From positions 1-64,000 of the IMG/VR virus record IMGVR_UViG_3300025929_000016: 64,000 nucleotides of DNA; one strand, written 5' to 3'. Shown piece by piece: positions 1 to 24,049 of this stretch. The notes under the pieces are model-generated. The model was not told where the DNA came from. It worked only from the letters and a program-made list of their open reading frames with translations, and made no database searches. The position numbers and the translations under genes are program-made. Every line of letters begins with the position of its first letter. The stretch's first letter is position 1. The DNA is from a virus.

Positions 1-1
1 T

Positions 2-193
2 TGGTATCCAGGTCAGGTATGGATTGATGACCTAATGTTCCCGGACATCGTAAGCGTGGACTTTCAGACTGCGGCATTGGACACGTTGTCCTTTAATCTG
101 CCGTCCACAAGCGCACCGGCAGAGCTTCCGTTGCCCGGTACGGTATGGCTGTTAGGCGCTGGCCTGTTGGCGCTCTACAGGCGGTCTAAATAG
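2..193 (+). CDS. C-terminal part of a protein with a PEP-CTERM-like sorting tail (partial)
   Basis: The reading frame is open from the left edge and stops at TAG 191-193, so only the last 63 residues are seen. The end reads LPLPGTVWLLGAGLLALYRR followed by SK. This is the PEP-CTERM/VPLPA layout: a Pro-x-Pro box, one hydrophobic helix and a short Arg-rich tail. In known systems exosortase cleaves such tails and the protein goes to the cell surface or extracellular matrix. The part before it (VWIDDLMF, FNLPST) looks like the beta-rich end of such a protein. Whether it is a phage gene or flanking host DNA cannot be decided because the N-terminus is missing. No attachment-site repeat is visible between it and the next gene. 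Confidence 0.7.
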   Translation, partial: WYPGQVWIDDLMFPDIVSVDFQTAALDTLSFNLPSTSAPAELPLPGTVWLLGAGLLALYRRSK

Positions 194-5101: not shown

Positions 5102-5557
5102 TCAGTTAAGGTTGATAAACGGTTCAAGGTTGGCTGGACTGTAGTGATCCGGCTTAATAATCTTGCCGTTGGCGTCCTTTAGAATCTTGCCGTCCGTGCG
5201 CTTGCTGTCATTGCTACGGATGACTTCTTCCAGACCGTTCTCGACGTCGGCGCCTTGGGACATACCTGCACCTGTGGAAACAACAATCAGGTCAAGGTCG
5301 GCGTCCAGCATTTCCTTGCGGCCTTCCAACGTGGACAAGGCTTTGCCGACGAAGAAATCATGCTTGCCTTGTTTGAACTGCATGCCAAGGTTGTCCAGGA
5401 TTTCAGCAATTTCTACCCGATCAAGAACCTTGAGCTTTTCAGCTAGTTCCTCGCACTGCAAGCCGACGTACATGGCCGACTGGCGCACGTTGACTTCAAA
5501 GGCTGTATTGCCAGCATCAACATTCCAGTTGATAATAGCGTCGATTGGATTCCTCAT
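5102..5557 (-). CDS. MazG-like/phosphoribosyl-ATP pyrophosphohydrolase-type NTP pyrophosphatase
   Basis: The start MRNPIDAIINWN at 5557 is used because it overlaps the upstream stop (ATGA). Residues 15-50 hold the helix with the acidic pair QCEELAEKLKV. Later comes LDADLDLIVVSTGAG, whose Asp residues complete the all-alpha NTP-PPase metal site. The end (EVIRSNDSKR TDGKILKDANGKIIKPDHYSP) is the usual tail of phage MazG-like/HisE-superfamily proteins. Such enzymes cleave NTPs or dNTPs to monophosphates, removing canonical or alarmone nucleotides. Here it could help shape the dNTP pool for modified DNA. Confidence 0.75.
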   Translation of the reverse strand: MRNPIDAIINWNVDAGNTAFEVNVRQSAMYVGLQCEELAEKLKVLDRVEIAEILDNLGMQFKQGKHDFFVGKALSTLEGRKEMLDADLDLIVVSTGAGMSQGADVENGLEEVIRSNDSKRTDGKILKDANGKIIKPDHYSPANLEPFINLN

Positions 5558-5736
5558 TGACCTGCCTCCTCGTTCAGGCGCTGTACGCCGTCTTGGTACG
5601 TTTTCAGGTTGATGTCCGTGGACAACTTGATTTCTGCCGAGCCGTACTTGCCGGTGCAGTAATTGATCTTCATGATAAGCTGTTCCATCAGTTCCAGCTT
5701 CTTCTCCAGATACACGGTCTTTTCCATAGCCATCAT
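5554..5736 (-). CDS. small coiled-coil protein, 60 aa
   Basis: A short protein (MMAMEKTVYLEKKLELMEQLIM... GVQRLNEEAGQ) with heptad-like helix at the start. It overlaps the MazG-like gene downstream (ATGA) and the glycosyltransferase upstream, so it is translationally coupled to both. Function unknown. Confidence 0.55.
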   Translation of the reverse strand: MMAMEKTVYLEKKLELMEQLIMKINYCTGKYGSAEIKLSTDINLKTYQDGVQRLNEEAGQ

Positions 5737-6527
5737 GCTTCCTTTCGTTGTGATGATTCATAAGCCTTTTTCCAGGCCACACGGACGTCGGTACGGGTCA
5801 TCCCGTTCCAACTGGTTTTTGTGGATTTCTCCACGACTGTGACAAAGCCAGGATGCAGACCCGCTAACACATGAGCATCCTCCTTCATCAATTCTAGCGT
5901 GCGGTAGTTGCTGCACCCGCCTGCGGCGTTGCTGCTGCCGTGGTCATTAGCGTACTGATAGAACACAGCGTTTCGGTACCCGGCGCGAAGTATCTGGAGT
6001 GTCATATCCATATCTTCTTTGGTCTTGGTGCGGTCGAACCTGAAGCCGTTACTCCGGACTACGTCCAGGTCCAAGCCAAAGATACGCATGCTCCGACCCA
6101 CCAACTTGACGTTCAGCGGTTCGTTCTGATTGCCTTCCCTGCTGCTGATGCCCACCATTGGGTACATCTCGAGAAATTCCAGCATGTCCTGGAACATTTG
6201 TTCGTGTTCCGCTGGCGTCATCTTGTACAGCTTCTTGGCCCCGGTTTCCTCTTTCCGTGTGAAGAACGTCAGATCGTCGTCCATTATGATCAAGAATCGT
6301 GTCAACACGTTCTCGATGAGCCACTGCCGCGTCGCCGTCAAGTTGGTAATCTCGGTAGGCAGCACTAGAAGCTGATTGGTTGAGAAACCCGCCGTCAGGT
6401 ACTGCGGGTATTCCTGTTGCTGGACACTGAACAACACCATATCGCGTATCGACGGCGGCAGGTTGTTGTAGGTCACTTGCTTGTTGATCCGGCCGAGTGT
6501 GTTTATCACTATTGTTACGTTCTGCAT
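5733..6527 (-). CDS. GT-A glycosyltransferase of the phage DNA-modification (TAGT-like) type
   Basis: The 264-residue protein has a GT-A layout. An N-terminal strand TIVINTLGR is followed by the metal/sugar-nucleotide motif IIMDDDLTFF (D83-D85), VGISSREGN (residues 125-132), and a C-terminal catalytic region KEDMDMTLQILRAGY with GSSNAAGGCSNYRT. The last two blocks are what I recall from TET/JBP-associated glycosyltransferases, which glycosylate hydroxymethylated pyrimidines in phage DNA. No TET/JBP dioxygenase is visible, so hydroxymethyl groups would have to come from the thymidylate synthase homologue at 11619. It could instead modify a protein or glycan; placement among nucleotide genes argues for DNA. 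Confidence 0.7.
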   Translation of the reverse strand: MQNVTIVINTLGRINKQVTYNNLPPSIRDMVLFSVQQQEYPQYLTAGFSTNQLLVLPTEITNLTATRQWLIENVLTRFLIIMDDDLTFFTRKEETGAKKLYKMTPAEHEQMFQDMLEFLEMYPMVGISSREGNQNEPLNVKLVGRSMRIFGLDLDVVRSNGFRFDRTKTKEDMDMTLQILRAGYRNAVFYQYANDHGSSNAAGGCSNYRTLELMKEDAHVLAGLHPGFVTVVEKSTKTSWNGMTRTDVRVAWKKAYESSQRKEA

Positions 6528-10159: not shown

Positions 10160-10687
10160 CTACGCCATGTTGCGGTCTTTCATACGTTCCACAATCTTGA
10201 GCATGTGCATCGCCTGGGACTTGGCGTCATCCAGCGCATTGTGGTGCGTACCCTGACGCATGAAGGTTACACGCGGGAACATGTTCTTCATGGTGCGATA
10301 GCAGCGATTGTTGAAGAACTTCCATGGCGTTTCCGAACCCACCTTGCGATACAGTTCTGCGAGCATGGCATTGTCAAAGTCGCTGCCGTTACCCCACAGT
10401 TCCATGTAGTCCGGTGCCCAGATGCTGAACTGCGCCAACGCCTTATCAGCCGCGATGCCGGGTTCCGACAGTACCGTGCGGGCTTCTGAAGACTGATCTG
10501 ACCACCATTTGAGCGTAGCAGGGTCAGACGTGCAGCCAAGGTCAAAGCACGATTGTCGGTCGATGACCACATAGAATTCGCGGCCGAGTGCCAACGAGTC
10601 GAAATCCATCTCCACGGCGCCGATGGAAAGTATGGCACTGTTGGCCCCGGTGCCAAGGGTTTCCAGGTCTAGCATAACGTTATTCAT
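10160..10687 (-). CDS. DnaQ-superfamily 3'-5' exonuclease (DEDDh, Rv2179c/DexA-like)
   Basis: The 175-residue protein begins MNNVMLDLETLGT (D7, E9), then SDFDNAML (second Asp) and finally GTHHNALDDAKSQAMHML (His and Asp of motif III). This is a full DEDDh set. The IGAVEMDF and WWSDQSSEAR segments resemble the Rv2179c-like/DexA branch, which acts on RNA or DNA 3' ends. Its start overlaps the end of the DUF3310-like gene by eight bases. It could recycle host nucleic acid or trim 3' ends during replication. Confidence 0.85.
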   Translation of the reverse strand: MNNVMLDLETLGTGANSAILSIGAVEMDFDSLALGREFYVVIDRQSCFDLGCTSDPATLKWWSDQSSEARTVLSEPGIAADKALAQFSIWAPDYMELWGNGSDFDNAMLAELYRKVGSETPWKFFNNRCYRTMKNMFPRVTFMRQGTHHNALDDAKSQAMHMLKIVERMKDRNMA

Positions 10688-11096
10688 GCTTAATTCCTTG
10701 TTTGGTTTCTTCGTGTTTGATTTGGGCCAGGATGAGATTCTTGGCATATTCCAAGTCGCTGTAGTCTTCCCACATCAAGATAAGATTGCTGACAGCTTGC
10801 TCCCATGGTAGAATCTCTGCTTCTTGGTAATATTTCAGAAGCAGATGTCCATACCCTCTGCAACGTTCTAGCATAGGAGGTCTGTCCAAGTCCAGATAGT
10901 TGCTTGCCAGTCGCTTGTCAATATAGCTAATAGACTTCTGCAAGTCCTGGATACCGTTCTTCTTGTACCAACGGGCAATGTACTTGCTGGCCGCAGATTC
11001 CAGATGTGGGACATCTGCATCATCGCAATAGTCCCAGTGCTGATATCCGCCAGCGTAGTGATTACCACCGACTTGTTCAACGTGTGGCGTAGACAT
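10680..11096 (-). CDS. DUF3310-like protein
   Basis: The start ATG 11096 has a GGAG ribosome site. The 138-residue product shows QVGGNHYAGGYQHWDYCDDA and KYIARWYKKNGIQDLQKSISYIDKRL, the signature of the DUF3310 family, which is widespread in phages and sometimes loosely annotated as nucleotide kinase. No P-loop is present, so I do not assign kinase activity. It sits between the HD phosphohydrolase and the exonuclease. Confidence 0.75.
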   Translation of the reverse strand: MSTPHVEQVGGNHYAGGYQHWDYCDDADVPHLESAASKYIARWYKKNGIQDLQKSISYIDKRLASNYLDLDRPPMLERCRGYGHLLLKYYQEAEILPWEQAVSNLILMWEDYSDLEYAKNLILAQIKHEETKQGIKHE

Positions 11097-11619
11097 ATTG
11101 ATTCTCCAGTCTGTCAAAGATATTGCAAACGACTTGTTCATAGTCGATTGGGCAAGGCAGGGTGCGCAGGAAACCGACGATGTTGTCATACATGTCGATC
11201 ACGTGCTTATTGCCGTACATTAGTTGGTCGATGCAGTAGAAACCAAGCTCCAGGCTGTCGGCCCACTTCAGCAATTGCTGCTCGTCCTTGGTAAGGTCAA
11301 CCAACAGGCCGTGGCGCCGATTAAACGCTTCTTCCATTATCTCCAGCTTCTGCTTGAGCAATGGGCTGCGCCACTTGGTATTGGCGGGCACATCCCCGGT
11401 GCTAGTCTCGGCCAGATCGTGGTAGAGCGCCGCCTTCATCAAGTTCATGCTAGGCTGACCGCCGGTAATTTCCAGCACAAGCATTGCCACGTGGAAGCTA
11501 TGCTCACCTACGGTCTGGTGACCAATGGTAGGCACGGTGTGGCAGCGACGCGTCATCGCAGACTGGCGCAAGTCATACATTTTAGTGTCAACGTAAGAGT
11601 TGAGTTCGGACATGTCCAT
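11077..11619 (-). CDS. HD-domain nucleotide phosphohydrolase (YfbR-like)
   Basis: The 180-residue protein has HTVPTIGHQTVGEHSFHVAML and ALYHDLAETSTGDVP (the HD pair), then KWADSLELGFYC, which supplies the last Asp. This fits 5'-deoxyribonucleotidases of the YfbR type. It starts at ATG 11619, overlapping the stop of the thymidylate synthase homologue by one base (TAATG). Such enzymes are often coupled to modified-base synthesis in phages because they remove canonical dNMPs; that link is inferred here. Confidence 0.8.
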   Translation of the reverse strand: MDMSELNSYVDTKMYDLRQSAMTRRCHTVPTIGHQTVGEHSFHVAMLVLEITGGQPSMNLMKAALYHDLAETSTGDVPANTKWRSPLLKQKLEIMEEAFNRRHGLLVDLTKDEQQLLKWADSLELGFYCIDQLMYGNKHVIDMYDNIVGFLRTLPCPIDYEQVVCNIFDRLENQYVYATR

Positions 11620-12632
11620 TATGCTTTCTCCTTTGCATTGTCCCAACGCTTTTCCAGCCACTGCATCGTTACCAACCGCCAGTCGTCGGCCAGGATATCA
11701 GATGCGTAGTGCTTCGTTGCTTCCCGCTGCGGTTCCAACTTGTTCTTACGCCATGTGACATGGCTATTGAATGTGTTCCACATAGGGTCAACCACATCGC
11801 AGAAGAATGCCGACTTGTAATGCGTGGTTTCGTGACCGGTATCCCAGCGGAAGAAGAACTCTGCCAAGTCCTCATCCCAATGCGGGTCGGCACAGCCCAT
11901 AGGGAAGGCTCGCACACCATCCTCGGCATACGGGTCTTGGAAGTCCCGGTGCTTGACAATGTCAACCCATTGCTGATTGAGGTAGCAGTGGAAGCTGTCC
12001 GTGGTTTGGTGATAATGGCCGAGGGCGACACCGAGCTTGTCAGCGATGTATTCCTGGAGCATGCTGAACTGGCAGACGTTGGTGCCGGTGAGACCCCAGA
12101 TGAAGTCATTGCTGCGATTGATCACGTGCATGTTCAACCGGCCCTGCCGCACCTTGAGCATGACCATCAGGTTGCAGGGTGTGTCCTTGCCTTCGTACCA
12201 CAGGTCATTGCGGTCACGAATGTTGATAACCACCTGCCGGCTGTCCGGGTCTTTTTGCAGACGCTCGATTGCCTTCTGGATCTGGTCATCTCCCATACCC
12301 GGCAGACCGCGCATCCGGCGACCGTAGGCACCGTAATAGGTGGAGCCGTTGTCGCTGTACTTCGCCATGTTGGGCACAAGGTATTGCAAGAAGTCGACGT
12401 CTTCCCGGCCTGCAAGAATCCACAGCGGCTCGAAGAAGTGTAGGAACGGGTTGATGTCCCGTTGTTTGTTGAACAACACGCGCTGGCGCGGGTCTTTGTA
12501 GCAGACGCTGACCGGCTGGTCGATTTCTAGCGTATCGCCGTGCTGACTGGCCTGCTTGACGCCTTGGTTGAGCAACAGATTGATGCCAATGGAATAAACT
12601 TCATTGACGTTGTTTGCCTTGATTGTGATCAT
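11619..12632 (-). CDS. thymidylate synthase family protein (possibly dUMP hydroxymethylase)
   Basis: The 337-residue protein has the family core: catalytic Cys153 in KDTPCNLMVML, the phosphate-binding INRSNDFIWG (R173, S174), GTNVCQFSML with Asn185 at the position that selects uracil over cytosine, and TTDSFHCYL (His215, Tyr217). Family members methylate or hydroxymethylate dUMP with methylene-tetrahydrofolate. The immediate neighbours (HD phosphohydrolase, thymine pyrophosphorylase) favour hydroxymethyl-dUMP as product, but sequence reading alone cannot separate the two reactions. ATGA overlap with the small upstream gene. Confidence 0.85.
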   Translation of the reverse strand: MITIKANNVNEVYSIGINLLLNQGVKQASQHGDTLEIDQPVSVCYKDPRQRVLFNKQRDINPFLHFFEPLWILAGREDVDFLQYLVPNMAKYSDNGSTYYGAYGRRMRGLPGMGDDQIQKAIERLQKDPDSRQVVINIRDRNDLWYEGKDTPCNLMVMLKVRQGRLNMHVINRSNDFIWGLTGTNVCQFSMLQEYIADKLGVALGHYHQTTDSFHCYLNQQWVDIVKHRDFQDPYAEDGVRAFPMGCADPHWDEDLAEFFFRWDTGHETTHYKSAFFCDVVDPMWNTFNSHVTWRKNKLEPQREATKHYASDILADDWRLVTMQWLEKRWDNAKEKA

Positions 12633-12832
12633 TTTCTTCTGCCTTTATTGTCTCGGGATTCGAAACCGCCTGCTGCCGCAAACGCCTTCAACTTGTTGTA
12701 CTGCTGCATTGCCATCTGCGGCGTGGAATACCAGATATGGCTACCCGGCCCACGTACACGATATGCTGGAATGTTCGTGACTTCGCCAAACTTCGTTGCA
12801 ATACCGAAGCCTTCACCTGTAGAACTTGTCAT
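12629..12832 (-). CDS. hypothetical protein, 67 aa
   Basis: A short basic protein (MTSSTGEGFGIATKFGEVTNI... NKLKAFAAAGGFESRDNKGRRK). A leader of the CTATACAG type (TATACAGAGGATAAT) precedes ATG 12832, and its stop overlaps the thymidylate synthase start. It may be a small partner of the modification enzymes. No family is recognised. Confidence 0.6.
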   Translation of the reverse strand: MTSSTGEGFGIATKFGEVTNIPAYRVRGPGSHIWYSTPQMAMQQYNKLKAFAAAGGFESRDNKGRRK

Positions 12833-12850
12833 ATTATCCTCTGTATAAGT
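12833..12850 (-). promoter_or_regulatory. CTATACAG-type leader
   Basis: On the minus strand ACTTATACAGAGGATAAT runs into ATG 12832. AGGA is the ribosome site. The leader abuts the stop of the pyrophosphorylase gene. Confidence 0.5.
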
Positions 12851-13734
12851 TACTTGCCTGGATACCCACTACGAGGCTTACCTTCCCCGAGGCGGACTCT
12901 GCTATGTTTGTCGAATTCGCATAGACAGTTCTGTACGTCATGCACCGGTAATTCTATTCCTGTGCGCTGGCGTATTGCACATTGTAGCACAAGAAGTTCC
13001 TCTTGTACACGGTCCGTTTTGATGCTCGCTTCCAGTGGCCGGGCGAAGTAACGATTCAACCCTCGCCTGCTGCCCGGCCCTATAGGTGCCCAAGTCATCC
13101 AGTCGCTGGCGTTGGCGAGGACGGAAGTGTGCTTCAAGTCAGCTACAACCTGACCGGCCATGAAGCTCCCCATGCCGTCGAACCGTGTGAGTTCGTTGTG
13201 GAAATGGTATAACGATTCCCAAGGTAGACTGTCCATGAAAGCCTTGCTGTCATGTATCGGCTTCACCACACGGTCAAGTATATAGTCAATCTTGTCCATG
13301 CTATGACCGTTGGTGCTCACCAGATAAGCGCCTGTCCAGATCTTGGCTCCTTTGGCACGTGCTTCTTTTAACGCCAAACGGATGGCATGAATATACCCTT
13401 CAAATGAATGCACTTCGCACTCAGGGAACCCAATCAATTGCAACGTGCTTTCCCTGTTGAACAACCGGGCGATGACCATGGCCGTAACCATGTTCGGGTG
13501 CGTATCATACGGGTCACGCCAGTTGCGCTTGATCCACTTGGTGACCTTGTCGTCTTCCCGGCGCACGTTGCAGAAGCGATATTGCTGGATGATAGGGTCG
13601 TGCGTCCACGGCGCAGGGAAGCCACTTTCCCTGCCTACCCGCGCCCGTTCGCGCTCTATGATCCAATGGTAAAAGAAAGCCTGATGGTTCTCCAGGCCAG
13701 CGTAGTCAACGAGTGGTGTGAGTGGTATGTTCAT
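12850..13734 (-). CDS. putative alpha-glutamyl/putrescinyl thymine pyrophosphorylase (aGPT-PPlase)
   Basis: The 294-residue protein has WIIERERARVGRESG (residues 24-38) then PWTHDPIIQQYRFCNVRRED (43-61) and DKVTKWI, the diagnostic block of the aGPT-PPlase family, which has a DNA-glycosylase-like helical fold. Later come YLVSTNGHSMDKIDYI, FDGMGSFMAGQVVADLKH (helix-hairpin-helix-like) and WAPIGPGSRRGLN. In phages such as phiW-14 and ViI these enzymes replace the pyrophosphate on 5-pyrophosphoryl-oxymethyl-uracil in DNA by an amine or amino acid. The matching hmdU DNA kinase is not visible in this window. Confidence 0.8.
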   Translation of the reverse strand: MNIPLTPLVDYAGLENHQAFFYHWIIERERARVGRESGFPAPWTHDPIIQQYRFCNVRREDDKVTKWIKRNWRDPYDTHPNMVTAMVIARLFNRESTLQLIGFPECEVHSFEGYIHAIRLALKEARAKGAKIWTGAYLVSTNGHSMDKIDYILDRVVKPIHDSKAFMDSLPWESLYHFHNELTRFDGMGSFMAGQVVADLKHTSVLANASDWMTWAPIGPGSRRGLNRYFARPLEASIKTDRVQEELLVLQCAIRQRTGIELPVHDVQNCLCEFDKHSRVRLGEGKPRSGYPGK

Positions 13735-14135
13735 AAGTCCTCAGTAACGTGTTTCCACGAAATTTTCCTTTTTATTTGGCTCACAGTGGACTGGGAAACG
13801 CCAAAGTTATCGGCAATTCTTTGCTGCGAACCATATGCTTGGTAAATCAACCTCACCAATTCCTCGTCTATAATCGCATTCAGAACCTGTGAGCCTCTGG
13901 GTTGCCTTCCCTTATTAACCTTATCTTTCATATTATCTTCATGCGTACCTAAGAATAAGTGATCAATGTTATAGCAGTTTCGAACATCACACTTATGCAA
14001 CACCTGAAGACCTTGCGGTATTGGACCATGGTGCTTCTCCCACTCAAGACGATGGACTTTGAATATTTTTCGGTTTATGGTGCGTTGTCCATAGCCGTGG
14101 CTTGATGCTCCTTCCCACAGTATGCATGGTGTCAT
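13731..14135 (-). CDS. HNH homing-type endonuclease with C-terminal HTH
   Basis: The N-terminal half is an HNH_3-type nuclease: KVHRLEWEKHHGPIPQGLQV, LHKCDVRNCYNIDHLFLGT and HEDNMKDKVNKGR. The C-terminal half has a helix-turn-helix (QRIADNFGVSQSTVSQIKR). This is the usual build of free-standing phage homing endonucleases. It overlaps the pyrophosphorylase start by ATGA, and it interrupts the modification/helicase gene order, which suggests insertion by homing. Confidence 0.85.
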   Translation of the reverse strand: MTPCILWEGASSHGYGQRTINRKIFKVHRLEWEKHHGPIPQGLQVLHKCDVRNCYNIDHLFLGTHEDNMKDKVNKGRQPRGSQVLNAIIDEELVRLIYQAYGSQQRIADNFGVSQSTVSQIKRKISWKHVTEDL

Positions 14136-18655: not shown

Positions 18656-19450
18656 TTAGAATTCTTCGGCCGTTTCTGCCATGCCTTCTTCAACAGGCAT
18701 TACCGGCTTGGCAGCGCCGGACTTGATTGCATCGCGGAAAGCCTTGGCTTCCACGTATTCAGCGATGTCTTCGACCTTGCCGAGATTTTCAATGGCAAAG
18801 CCAAACCAGGAACCCTTGTCGTTCTTTTCAGGTACCGTGGTGATCTTGTACACGTGAGAGAACATCGGCGCCGTAACGAAGCCGCTGTTGGTTTTCAGCT
18901 TGATGCCGTTCATGAGGGACATCCACTGGCGCGACTTTTTCAGTTGCGTCGAGGACATCGTCAGTTGCGCTGGAGTCAGCGTACCGTCCGCTTTGCGGAT
19001 CATGACGAAGTGGTTGCGTGTGTCGACCAGCGTATTGCCGTTCGGCAGCATGTCGCGACCTTTGTCATCCTTCGTGGTTGGCTGCGACTGCATGTGCTCT
19101 GCCACGAAACCGCCACCATCTTCACGGCGCTTCCATTCGATGAAGCGCTGCGTGTAGTGAACGGGGATGACTTCAATGCCAGCGGTACCGTCGTACAACT
19201 CCTGGGTCACAGTGTTGAACAACATACCTTCTTCGGCGCCCTTGATGTAGGCACCATCCGATTTCTTGCACTGAGGGGATCCAGATTGGAGGATCTGGAG
19301 GAAGGGGATAGCATACGCCGAAGCGCCTGCTTCCTCGAAACCGCCACCAGCGTCTTCTTCCATCGATTGCTGCATCAAGGCAATTTGCTGTGCCTTAACG
19401 GTGTCCAGTTCGGTGGAAGCGCCTTCTGCGGTTTTGTCTTTGGTTGCCAT
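18656..19450 (-). CDS. putative single-stranded-DNA-binding-type protein, 264 aa
   Basis: The protein has a variable N-terminus (MATKDKTAEGASTELDTVKA), a beta-rich core (AIPFLQILQSGSPQCKKSDG, GIEVIPVHYTQRFIEWKRRE, NHFVMIRKADG, SWFGFAIENLG) and an acidic tail ending AETAEEF. An acidic tail with terminal Phe is the hallmark of phage and bacterial SSBs that recruit partner proteins. The core is like a conserved phage family often found beside replication genes. It stands alone between a structured leader (19451-19797) and a terminator, so it is likely abundant and possibly autoregulated. Confidence 0.6.
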   Translation of the reverse strand: MATKDKTAEGASTELDTVKAQQIALMQQSMEEDAGGGFEEAGASAYAIPFLQILQSGSPQCKKSDGAYIKGAEEGMLFNTVTQELYDGTAGIEVIPVHYTQRFIEWKRREDGGGFVAEHMQSQPTTKDDKGRDMLPNGNTLVDTRNHFVMIRKADGTLTPAQLTMSSTQLKKSRQWMSLMNGIKLKTNSGFVTAPMFSHVYKITTVPEKNDKGSWFGFAIENLGKVEDIAEYVEAKAFRDAIKSGAAKPVMPVEEGMAETAEEF

Positions 19451-22333: not shown

Positions 22334-22465
22334 TTATTGGTTTAATTTTGTATCTCTTAGCTCCTTAGCTTTAATCATACGTGGTGAAATAGGGTGTTCC
22401 TTGGCATAGACACTAGACAGCAGCGCCGCTATGACAAGGAACACTAGGATAGTGCGCTGAATCAT
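22334..22465 (-). CDS. 43-aa exported or membrane peptide
   Basis: MIQRTILVFLVIAALLSSVY then AKEHPISPR... is a hydrophobic signal-like helix with a likely cleavage after VYA and a short basic mature part ending LRDTKLNQ. The start overlaps the SNF2 helicase stop (ATGA). Function unknown. Confidence 0.5.
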   Translation of the reverse strand: MIQRTILVFLVIAALLSSVYAKEHPISPRMIKAKELRDTKLNQ

Positions 22466-23964
22466 ATCCATTCCTTGAAGTCGGTCATGTAGTCAGCAAG
22501 GTCCCCTTTATTCCTGAGAGCGGTAATGATCTTGGCGTCCACTGTGTTCTCAGCTTCAAGGTCGACGTAGTTGACATTTCTTTTCTGCCCAATACGATGT
22601 GCACGGTCTTCAGACTGTTTCCGATCTTCGTATGAAAAAGTATTGGAATAGTAGATAACAGTGGATGCGCAAGTAAGGTTAAGACCAATTCCTCCAGTAG
22701 CAACGTTTCCGATGAAAAATTTACGAGTACCACTTGTAAATTCGCGTAAGGCTTGCTCTCGTTCAGCAGTTGACTTTCCACCATAATAGCTAACACAATC
22801 CTCTCCAAGAATTGCCTCGATCTGCTTGATCTCCTCGACGAAGCGACACCATATAATACATTGTCCATCGATATCCTCCACTGTATCAAGCAGCGCCTTA
22901 ATGCGCGGATTGTCCTTCGGGTTGTCGTACAACTGCACCATACCGCCGTCATCGGTCGGCAGATAACCATTTGCCAACTGTTGTAGACGCATGATTAGCG
23001 TCATCTTGTGCATGACAGTCAACGTTTCGTCGTTCAGTTCGGTCTTCATCTTAGTCCGAAGCTGTTCGTACATTTTCCATTGCTTAGGTTCAAGCTGGAA
23101 GTAACGCTTCTGGTAGATCTTCTCAGGCAGCGTCAGACATTCTTCCTTCGTTACCCGCATGCTGTACGGTGCAATGATCGCCTTGAGTTTATCCAGATTT
23201 TTGTAGACCGCTTTCCCGTTAGCGTCAGTCTTGACAAGCATCGGTGCGAACTTGCTGCCGGTCTTGCGCATGATGCCTTGCACCTTCGGATCATTCTTGT
23301 CCAGGATTTCTGCATACTCAGCTTTGAAAGCATAATAGCTCTGGCCGAAGATAGAAGGGTCAAGGAACATGAATTGTGCGTAGTAGTCGAACGGACTGTT
23401 GGAGATTGGCGTACCAGTCAGGATGCGCCGATACTTCGCCAGTTCGCCTAGCTTGCATAGGTTCTTCGTGCGGATAGCATCAGGATTCTTTATGCGACTG
23501 GATTCGTCAACCACCATCATACAGTCAGTGGCCCGCAGGAACTTCTTGGCGAACTCTAGACCTGACTTGTGGCTGAAACCTTCTACGTTCATGCAGCAGA
23601 CTCGCAGTGCGCTGCCCGGTTTCAACAAGTCTTCGCATTCTTGCATGGCCTTCTTGTTACCGGCTTCCCACACTGCCCCTTTCATTTCTGCCCAATCAGG
23701 CCAGGAGAAAGGGAAGTCTTCACGCAGCCACTTCGCATGGACACCGTTCGGCGCAACAAGTAGCAATGAATCAATCCTGCCCAACGAGTGCAGTTTGGCG
23801 GCATTGTCAACAATCACCTTGGATTTGCCTGCACCCATTTCAAACAGGATGGCAAACACTTCCATTGACCAACTGCGCTTCAAACACGCTAGTTGATGGT
23901 CATACGGCGGGCTTTTGAAAATATAGGGCTGTTGGGCCGCAACGGCGGCGGTAGTTTGGGGCAT
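22462..23964 (-). CDS. SNF2-family (SF2) helicase/translocase
   Basis: The start MPQTTAAVAAQQPY at 23964 follows an AAAGGT ribosome site; an earlier in-frame ATG lies within the repeat. The 500-residue protein has DHQLACLKRSWSMEVFAILF and motif I EMGAGKSKVIV, LLLVAPNGVHAKWLREDFP, motif II MVVDESSRIKN, motif III RRILTGTPISNSP. In the second lobe it has CIIWCRFVEEI, FFIGNVATGGIGLNLTCAS and motif VI QSEDRAHRIGQKRNVNYVDL. Phage SNF2 proteins are thought to work in replication or recombination on branched DNA. It is the only SF2 helicase in this set. Confidence 0.9.
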   Translation of the reverse strand: MPQTTAAVAAQQPYIFKSPPYDHQLACLKRSWSMEVFAILFEMGAGKSKVIVDNAAKLHSLGRIDSLLLVAPNGVHAKWLREDFPFSWPDWAEMKGAVWEAGNKKAMQECEDLLKPGSALRVCCMNVEGFSHKSGLEFAKKFLRATDCMMVVDESSRIKNPDAIRTKNLCKLGELAKYRRILTGTPISNSPFDYYAQFMFLDPSIFGQSYYAFKAEYAEILDKNDPKVQGIMRKTGSKFAPMLVKTDANGKAVYKNLDKLKAIIAPYSMRVTKEECLTLPEKIYQKRYFQLEPKQWKMYEQLRTKMKTELNDETLTVMHKMTLIMRLQQLANGYLPTDDGGMVQLYDNPKDNPRIKALLDTVEDIDGQCIIWCRFVEEIKQIEAILGEDCVSYYGGKSTAEREQALREFTSGTRKFFIGNVATGGIGLNLTCASTVIYYSNTFSYEDRKQSEDRAHRIGQKRNVNYVDLEAENTVDAKIITALRNKGDLADYMTDFKEWI

Positions 23965-23999
23965 TTGGGTACCTTTAAAATGGTTTTGGGCTTGCAGGG

Positions 24000-24049
24000 C
24001 AGGCCCGCCACGGCGTTTAAACAAGGTGGTTGGTATGCTGGTACCAACC
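24000..24049 (-). repeat. dispersed hairpin repeat, copy 3
   Basis: On the minus strand GGTTGGTA-CCAGCA-TACCAACC (24028-24049) is followed by TTTAAACGCC and GTGGCGGGCCTG. It lies 16 bases after the stop of the 67-aa gene (24066), in the sense direction, and before the SNF2 helicase start. Confidence 0.65.

Follow-up and report, generated by a model that had tools for sequence, protein, structure and literature searches.

The closest described systems are the M6/YuA-type cassettes of Pseudomonas phages M6, SN1 and YuA, Pseudanabaena phage Pam3 and Stenotrophomonas phage Sonora. Near PolA they carry, in order, aGPT1 (the HMUDK_hel / aGPT-PPlase clade 1 protein), a thymidylate synthase (TS) homologue, an HD-domain protein and a small protein, and in Pam3 a MazG gene is found further along. 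The same order is present in the window, which is the whole 64,000-nt stretch analysed here. In the M6/YuA-type cassettes, however, a kinase is located directly before aGPT1 and aGPT-PPlase2 and Nmad5 are also present, and YuA, SN1 and Pam3 additionally encode a PLP enzyme and one of the radical SAM type; in the record of the window none of these was detected, and a TAGT-family glycosyltransferase is present.

A second related group is that of the HTVC023P-type pelagiphages, for which co-location of TS, aG/PT-PPlase1, a 5'-deoxynucleotidase and a beta-glucosyl-HMC-alpha-glucosyltransferase near PolA was reported in 2022 (PMC9599517). According to the accessible part of that paper, its authors interpreted the group as M6-like but broader in function, and they do not state that the glycosyltransferase excludes the kinase. 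One operon of the cultured Brevibacterium phage LuckyBarnes combines a TS homologue with two TAGTs and a gene for an HMUDK_hel protein; the annotation is dCMP hydroxymethylase plus glycosyltransferases (PMC6588365). No kinase was found in the whole LuckyBarnes record. Its aGPT1 and TS are very diverged, and a scan with its aGPT1 matched only LuckyBarnes itself.

Glycosyl transfer onto a hydroxymethyl-pyrimidine in DNA is also known from the T4 alpha- and beta-glucosyltransferases and from the T2/T6 TAGT on 5-hmC, the latter being of the same Pfam family as the TAGT of the window (PMC13216743). In contrast to these phages, the base in the window is predicted to be 5-hmdU, and an aGPT1 partner is present. 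The predicted end product, an O-glycosylated 5-hmdU, would be of the same type as kinetoplastid base J. Base J arises through oxidation of T in DNA, whereas in the present system hydroxymethylation would happen at the nucleotide level.

Gene content of the locus

The genes assigned to the thymine cassette were the following.

12850..13734, minus strand: aGPT1, HMUDK_hel / aGPT-PPlase clade 1 protein of 294 aa (PF18723 4e-44, phrog_2396 4e-58)
12629..12832, minus strand: 67-aa ORF between aGPT1 and TS, with a good ribosome-binding site
11619..12632, minus strand: thymidylate synthase superfamily protein resembling dUMP 5-hydroxymethylases (PF00303 7e-20, phrog_5131 2.5e-94)
11077..11619, minus strand: HD-domain YfbR-like 5'-deoxynucleotidase (PF12917 1e-13, phrog_6047 5e-39)
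10680..11096, minus strand: small DUF3310/phrog_5839 protein after HD (phrog_5839 3e-21)
5733..6527, minus strand: TAGT-family glycosyltransferase with DDD motif (PF20691 3e-19, phrog_842 1e-46)
5102..5557, minus strand: MazG-like nucleotide pyrophosphohydrolase (phrog_671 1.7e-25; weak similarity to Pam3 MazG)

A preliminary description of the sequence had proposed a contiguous TS homologue with Asn185, HD phosphohydrolase and aGPT-PPlase candidate as a gene set for hypermodified thymine. All three genes were recovered by profile matches, the HD protein as YfbR-like, which supported a gene set of the dUMP-hydroxymethylase type for modified thymine. They lie next to each other on a single strand, but aGPT1 is separated from TS by the 67-aa ORF, for which no relatives were found by profile and relative-loci searches. 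The HD ORF opens at 11661, and the ATG at 11619, which has a good ribosome-binding site and overlaps the TS stop by 1 base, is the likelier start. The DUF3310/phrog_5839 ORF opens at 11189, with ATG 11096 the likelier start judging from the ribosome-binding site; a relative of this protein was present in 60 of 80 loci, at the same place in most relatives. The MazG-like ORF opens at 5782, and its conserved portion starts at ∼5557.

It was found that the catalytic Cys153 and the uracil-selecting Asn185 of the TS homologue, which align with Cys146 and Asn177 of E. coli ThyA, were conserved without exception in 100 phage relatives. Inspection of the sequence suggested a dUMP hydroxymethylase of the TS superfamily, as in amine-type hypermodification, rather than a canonical thymidylate synthase. 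Ordinary nucleotide metabolism, with the enzyme making dTMP and the phage DNA carrying plain T, would agree with membership of this superfamily, but was considered extremely unlikely: the scores were far below the NCBIfam thymidylate synthase equivalog cut-offs (76 bits against 174.55, and 62 against 327), the best PDB match was CMP 5-hydroxymethylase, E. coli ThyA Trp80 had no counterpart and an Asn stood in place of His147, both in this protein and in its aligned relatives, and the homologue was constantly accompanied by aGPT1.

Kinase and amine-route enzymes

Searches for absent genes covered the full 69,251-base record, beyond the window. Because both ends of the record meet in one reading frame, through one PEP-CTERM-type gene, it is probably complete, and incompleteness is an unlikely cause of the absences. 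No 5-hmdU DNA kinase was detected in the record by tblastn with three phage kinases, by PF18748, or by a sensitive 25-sequence kinase profile (positive controls of 4e-60 and 2e-71), and the only matches of a P-loop motif scan were in a UvrD helicase, a terminase and two unrelated ORFs. A kinase hidden in the record was rejected on these grounds. Over the same record, aGPT-PPlase2 was not detected by tblastn with three relatives (best E of 0.014 over 41 residues) or by HMM, nor was any Nmad5, PLP enzyme or viral radical-SAM enzyme. The absence of the kinase noted earlier for the window was therefore confirmed and extended to the whole record, and the search for PLP and radical-SAM enzymes that had been suggested with it was negative.

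These results left unsupported the route, considered in the preliminary description, in which phosphorylation of 5-hmdU in DNA is followed by substitution with an amine or amino acid. A canonical amine pathway like that of M6, ViI and phiW-14 would require that the kinase and later enzymes be host-encoded, diverged or outside the record. The homology of aGPT1, TS and HD to the M6-type genes of YuA, Pam3 and Sonora is in its favour. Nevertheless, with these enzymes undetected in a record whose ends join, and with aGPT-PPlase2 present in 21 of 44 kinase cassettes against 0 of 51 glycosyltransferase cassettes, it was judged very unlikely.

Mutual exclusion of kinase and glycosyltransferase in relatives

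The glycosyltransferase noted earlier was confirmed, as the protein at 5733-6527 scored 70 bits against PF20691 (cut-off 27.5); D82 and D83 (alignment A2 numbering) were invariant in the TAGT alignment. The gene is situated ∼6.3 kb from aGPT1, beyond PolA, and its link with the cassette therefore rests on relatives. The nearest of these (52-55% identity) showed the same layout, with a TAGT or other glycosyltransferase 4.5-7 kb downstream, and in relatives generally the kinase or TAGT was mostly within 400 bases of aGPT1.

Among 112 non-redundant aGPT1 loci, 102 had a TS homologue; 44 of the latter carried a kinase, 51 a glycosyltransferase of three families, 6 a fourth family, and 1 neither. 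Kinase and glycosyltransferase were together in none of the 102 loci, against 22 expected, and in none of 185 loci overall. Whole-record searches gave the same result: TAGT was found in 0 of 46 kinase-type records, and a profile that did detect its positive controls found no kinase in any of the 45 records of glycosyltransferase type. The preliminary description had viewed the glycosyltransferase as an unusual mix with the thymine genes; the lack of co-occurrence indicates instead that it replaces the kinase.

The aGPT1 tree required at least 15 switches between kinase and glycosyltransferase, several of them forced by supported branches. By independent pairs, 0 changed in the same direction, 6 in opposite directions and 2 showed no difference (p of 0.03). 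The exclusion test became weaker once clusters were merged at 50-70% identity, because the merged clusters already held both kinds, which shows recent swapping. Families C and D gave no usable sequence match in Pfam, PHROGs, NCBIfam or PDB. The fourth family, C, served as a test of the replacement idea and was placed by fold, its best PDB match being T4 DNA alpha-glucosyltransferase with hydroxymethyluracil DNA; family D rests on a motif reading (GG..T...L...L...GH.V and DGGGTQY.F.E..DAG) and one sub-threshold Glyco_transf_4 hint. A single-protein TAGT search of viral contigs yielded 6 loci. The co-location of the genes is known from the pelagiphages (PMC9599517), and no prior report of the kinase/glycosyltransferase exchange was found in the part of the literature that the search covered.

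It was also considered that the TAGT might modify something else, such as 5-hmC or a surface glycan, with the phage DNA carrying 5-hmdU alone. T-even TAGTs act on 5-hmC that is already glucosylated (PMC13216743), so the substrate here is deduced from Asn185, and the distance between TAGT and cassette in this genome would also fit such a target. The uracil type of the TS homologue, with Asn185 in all 100 relatives, the mutual exclusion of TAGT and kinase, and the fact that in most relatives TAGT neighbours aGPT1 and TS make it quite unlikely.

The role of aGPT1 and the proposed pathway

The match of aGPT1 to PF18723 (151 bits, cut-off 25) covered model positions 5-278 of 281, in agreement with the candidate assignment made before any database search; the refuting outcome named with that assignment, a protein failing to match this profile, did not arise. 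The AF2 model was all-helical with a pLDDT of 93.5. At least 95% conservation in both partner classes, kinase and glycosyltransferase, was observed at 22 positions; the invariant residues were identical whichever the partner, and no position was class-specific. Since aGPT1 accompanies kinase and glycosyltransferase systems alike with the same invariant residues, the name aGPT-PPlase is misleading. The genomic context argues against a kinase-pathway-specific role, and aGPT1 is probably a shared helper, perhaps base-flipping, and not a pyrophosphorylase. In Bacillus phage SBSphiC it forms a natural fusion with the kinase, the sole kind of fusion seen; TAGT-aGPT1 fusion proteins were searched for and none were found. 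It was reported that T4 beta-glucosyltransferase glucosylates 5hmU in duplex only if mispaired with G (PMC4111573), which implies that a base-presenting helper would be useful. In vitro, 5hmU DNA can be phosphorylated with a commercial 5-hmdU DNA kinase (PMC7653180, PMC6457204), which would speak against a helper if that preparation is free of an aGPT1 domain.

If the base is glycosylated as proposed, aGPT1 could still be an enzyme in its own right, such as a DNA-glycosylase-like protein removing undecorated 5-hmdU or host bases, and be selected for this activity whichever decoration is used. Its top fold matches were the HhH DNA glycosylases EndoIII, MutY and OGG1, an invariant Asp (D211) comes after a G-x-G-x-F-M-A motif, and lone aGPT1, without TS, occurs in giant-phage contigs. 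But the fold matches were non-significant (E of 0.36 and above, TM ∼0.28), and the kinase fusion and the close spacing between aGPT1 and the gene of the decorating enzyme suit a partner better; an independent enzyme was thus regarded as rather unlikely. The lone occurrences and the lack of significance of the fold matches also count against the helper reading. Profile searches of aGPT1 or TAGT against PDB returned nothing.

Conserved residues, gene content, repeated switching and mutual exclusion were observed in the sequences, whereas we infer the chemistry, a sugar as the decoration and a helper function for aGPT1, as follows. The TS homologue would make 5-hydroxymethyl-dUMP from dUMP, and the HD nucleotidase and MazG would favour its use over dTMP. 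The hydroxymethylated base would then enter DNA, replacing part of thymine, and TAGT would add a sugar to the hydroxymethyl group in DNA, giving a base-J-like glycosyl-5-hmdU. In this step aGPT1 would serve as a shared, probably DNA-binding, base-presenting helper of the decorating enzyme, which in relatives would pair with the P-loop 5-hmdU DNA kinase instead. This reading was given a probability of about 0.6. Because the glycosyltransferase replaces the kinase, and 102 non-redundant relatives show the same either/or choice, it is probable that thymines in the DNA of this phage are decorated with sugars and not with amines. The chances are about even that aGPT1/HMUDK_hel is a general 5-hmdU-presenting subunit, serving interchangeably enzymes that decorate DNA but are not related to each other, among them a single kinase fold, one GT-A family and as many as three GT-B families of glycosyltransferases; phages would thereby exchange, time and again, a phosphate or amine on thymine for a sugar.

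If this is true, there would be a large phage class whose glycosylated thymine arises independently of TET/JBP enzymes, and glycosylated 5-hmdU DNA would be predicted in many uncultivated phages and at least one cultured phage, LuckyBarnes. The aGPT1 family, now named after a reaction that it probably does not perform, would be reassigned, and its role would become directly testable by biochemistry. Switching between phosphate or amine and sugar on one base would then clearly be a trait of the arms race with modification-dependent restriction and with glycosylases that remove hmU.

Gene chain and completeness of the record

The window comprises bases 1-64,000 of a 69,251-base virus record. The three adjacent genes named in the preliminary description were found to be real and to lie on the minus strand, and the profile match of 12850-13734 bore out its aGPT-PPlase assignment.

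12850-13734, minus strand: aGPT1, PF18723 HMUDK_hel (aGPT-PPlase clade 1), 151 bits against a cut-off of 25
Between aGPT1 and the next gene: 67-residue open reading frame, no assigned function
11619-12632, minus strand: thymidylate synthase (TS) superfamily protein, by sequence and profile matches
11077-11661, minus strand: YfbR-like HD nucleotidase (HD), by profile match
5733-6527, further along the same chain: TET-associated glycosyltransferase (TAGT)

After HD, the chain continued with a DUF3310-like protein, an exonuclease, a ligase, DNA polymerase I, an HTH protein, TAGT and a MazG-like protein. An HNH endonuclease with a C-terminal helix-turn-helix (13731-14135) overlapped the aGPT1 start by 4 bases; HNH genes also flanked or interrupted some related cassettes (loci L030, L079 and L085). 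A SNF2-type helicase was encoded at 22462-24024, and a similar protein lay upstream of the cassette in ∼45 of 80 relatives, more commonly than expected of an unrelated gene. Positions 840-1325 matched pyrimidine dimer DNA glycosylase at a score under the threshold (PF03013, E = 0.002).

The record end (68960-69251; about 18961-19252 in locus L002) and window positions 1-193 formed one reading frame. Since the ends join in frame, this is probably a whole, circularly permuted genome, and pathway genes not found in it are probably truly absent. The protein across the joined ends had a signal peptide and a PEP-CTERM-like tail (LPLPGTVWLLGAGLLALYRRSK); such a predicted phage-encoded exported or sorted protein hints at a PEP-CTERM host.

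The preliminary description had proposed an amine or amino-acid route to hypermodified thymine. The cassettes of YuA, Pam3 and SN1, in which the amine pathway is known or presumed, contain PLP, radical SAM, aGPT-PPlase2, kinase, aGPT1, Nmad5 and TS genes, with HD additionally in YuA and Pam3; that of Sonora contains aGPT-PPlase2, kinase, aGPT1, Nmad5 and TS. When proteins of these cassettes were searched against the record by tblastn, only aGPT1, TS, HD and MazG matched. The 5-hydroxymethyl-dU (5-hmdU) DNA kinase, already reported missing from the window, was found nowhere in the 69,251 bases by tblastn, by PF18748 or by a 25-sequence kinase profile (positive controls, 2e-71 and 4e-60). With the kinase and the enzymes that follow it in the amine route not found in the record, the amine pathway is unlikely in this phage.

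Kinase and glycosyltransferase in related cassettes

The aGPT1 relatives came from contigs of viruses and of bacterial genomes and from annotated phages, and every open reading frame of their loci was searched with profiles for the kinase, TAGT, other glycosyltransferases, aGPT-PPlase2, TS and HD. TS was encoded alongside aGPT1 in 102 of the 112 representatives (90% identity). These 102 carried a kinase in 44 cases, a glycosyltransferase (TAGT, group-1 glycosyltransferase or the unnamed family D) in 51, the unnamed family C in six and neither in one; both occurred together in none, against 22 expected by chance. The raw contingency-table probability of 7.5e-22 ignores relatedness, and the tree test below is the honest one. 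No single locus among 185 held both enzymes, TAGT was absent from all 46 whole kinase-type records, and the whole glycosyltransferase-type records searched yielded no kinase; a 30-residue P-loop match of 14 bits in the latter was rejected as a kinase. The kinase lay ≤400 bases from aGPT1 in 27 of the 32 representatives having it, and TAGT in 26 of 37. aGPT-PPlase2 accompanied 21/44 kinase cassettes and 0/51 glycosyltransferase cassettes.

On the aGPT1 tree, at least 15 changes between the two types were counted, and on the well supported branches alone each label had to be gained or lost 8 to 9 times. In independent pairs differing in kinase, the glycosyltransferase differed in the opposite direction in ∼6 of 8 and in the same direction in none (p = 0.03). 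Judged from these tree-based results, the exclusion is not explained by common descent alone. In the window's own clade (aGPT1 52-55% identical), TAGT or another glycosyltransferase lay several kb downstream of TS, the layout also seen in the window. Loci L073, L062 and L054 formed one aGPT1 cluster at 70% identity, with a kinase in one and family D in the others, apparently a recent exchange.

A radical SAM/SPASM protein, which may further alter the sugar or base, was observed with 9/51 glycosyltransferase-type cassettes and no kinase-type ones (L038:8992-9966, L009:8970-10028, L036:8098-9072). One cassette (L169:5155-10430) combined TAGT, a family D glycosyltransferase, radical SAM, aGPT1, TS and HD; a disaccharide or further modified sugar is a possible product.

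No named family matched family C in sequence. On the premise that a hydroxymethyl-decorating enzyme always occupies the position next to aGPT1, family C should be a kinase or a glycosyltransferase. The best PDB match of its predicted structure (pLDDT 73, pTM 0.74) was T4 DNA alpha-glucosyltransferase with UDP and hydroxymethyluracil DNA (E = 3e-4, probability 1.00), followed by thirteen further matches that were all glycosyltransferases. As the TM scores were moderate (about 0.4-0.5), the model identifies the fold class, a predicted glycosyltransferase, and not the substrate. Family D, with GT-B sequence features and a sub-threshold Glyco_transf_4 match, was counted as a glycosyltransferase less certainly.

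The synthase and the putative role of aGPT1

The closest solved relative of the TS homologue was CMP 5-hydroxymethylase, not thymidylate synthase, and its scores were far under the thymidylate synthase equivalog cut-offs. In this superfamily, Asn at the base-reading position specifies uracil rather than cytosine. The uracil-selective Asn185 of the preliminary description indeed aligned with E. coli Asn177 and, like the catalytic Cys153, was invariant in 100/100 aligned phage relatives. In the same relatives, the E. coli His147 position was Asn in 100/100; the Trp80 position was missing in nearly all and Trp in none, a loss that would fit a hydroxymethylase.

The aGPT1 model was all-helical (pLDDT 93.5), with HhH DNA glycosylases as closest fold neighbours at a similarity under significance. 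Because 22 positions were ≥95% conserved in the kinase-type as well as the glycosyltransferase-type proteins, and none was found that told the two classes apart, aGPT1 seems to do the same job with either enzyme. In Bacillus phage SBSphiC, kinase (35-193) and HMUDK_hel (312-597) form one polypeptide. The simplest reading is that aGPT1 is a putative DNA-handling partner which would select or present 5-hmdU. T4 beta-glucosyltransferase glucosylates duplex 5hmU only in a mispair with G (PMC4111573), a restriction that would account for a base-presenting helper. On the other side, a commercial 5-hmdU DNA kinase, which may or may not include the helical domain, is active in vitro on 5hmU DNA (PMC7653180, PMC6457204). 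Giant-phage contigs (L011, L018, L025 and L056; about 100-463 kb) carried aGPT1 without TS, kinase or glycosyltransferase nearby; the gene directly upstream in L018 encoded an inosine-uridine nucleoside hydrolase (PF01156).

The combination with a glycosyltransferase had been considered an unusual mix. Since co-location of TS, aGPT-PPlase1, 5'-deoxynucleotidase and glucosyltransferase is noted for pelagiphages (PMC9599517), this mix of genes was known before. In the literature that could be read, no statement was found of the mutual exclusion, the repeated exchange, the constancy of the aGPT1 residues or the genome lacking a kinase. By its gene content, the window is predicted to hold a sugar-type thymine-modification cassette.
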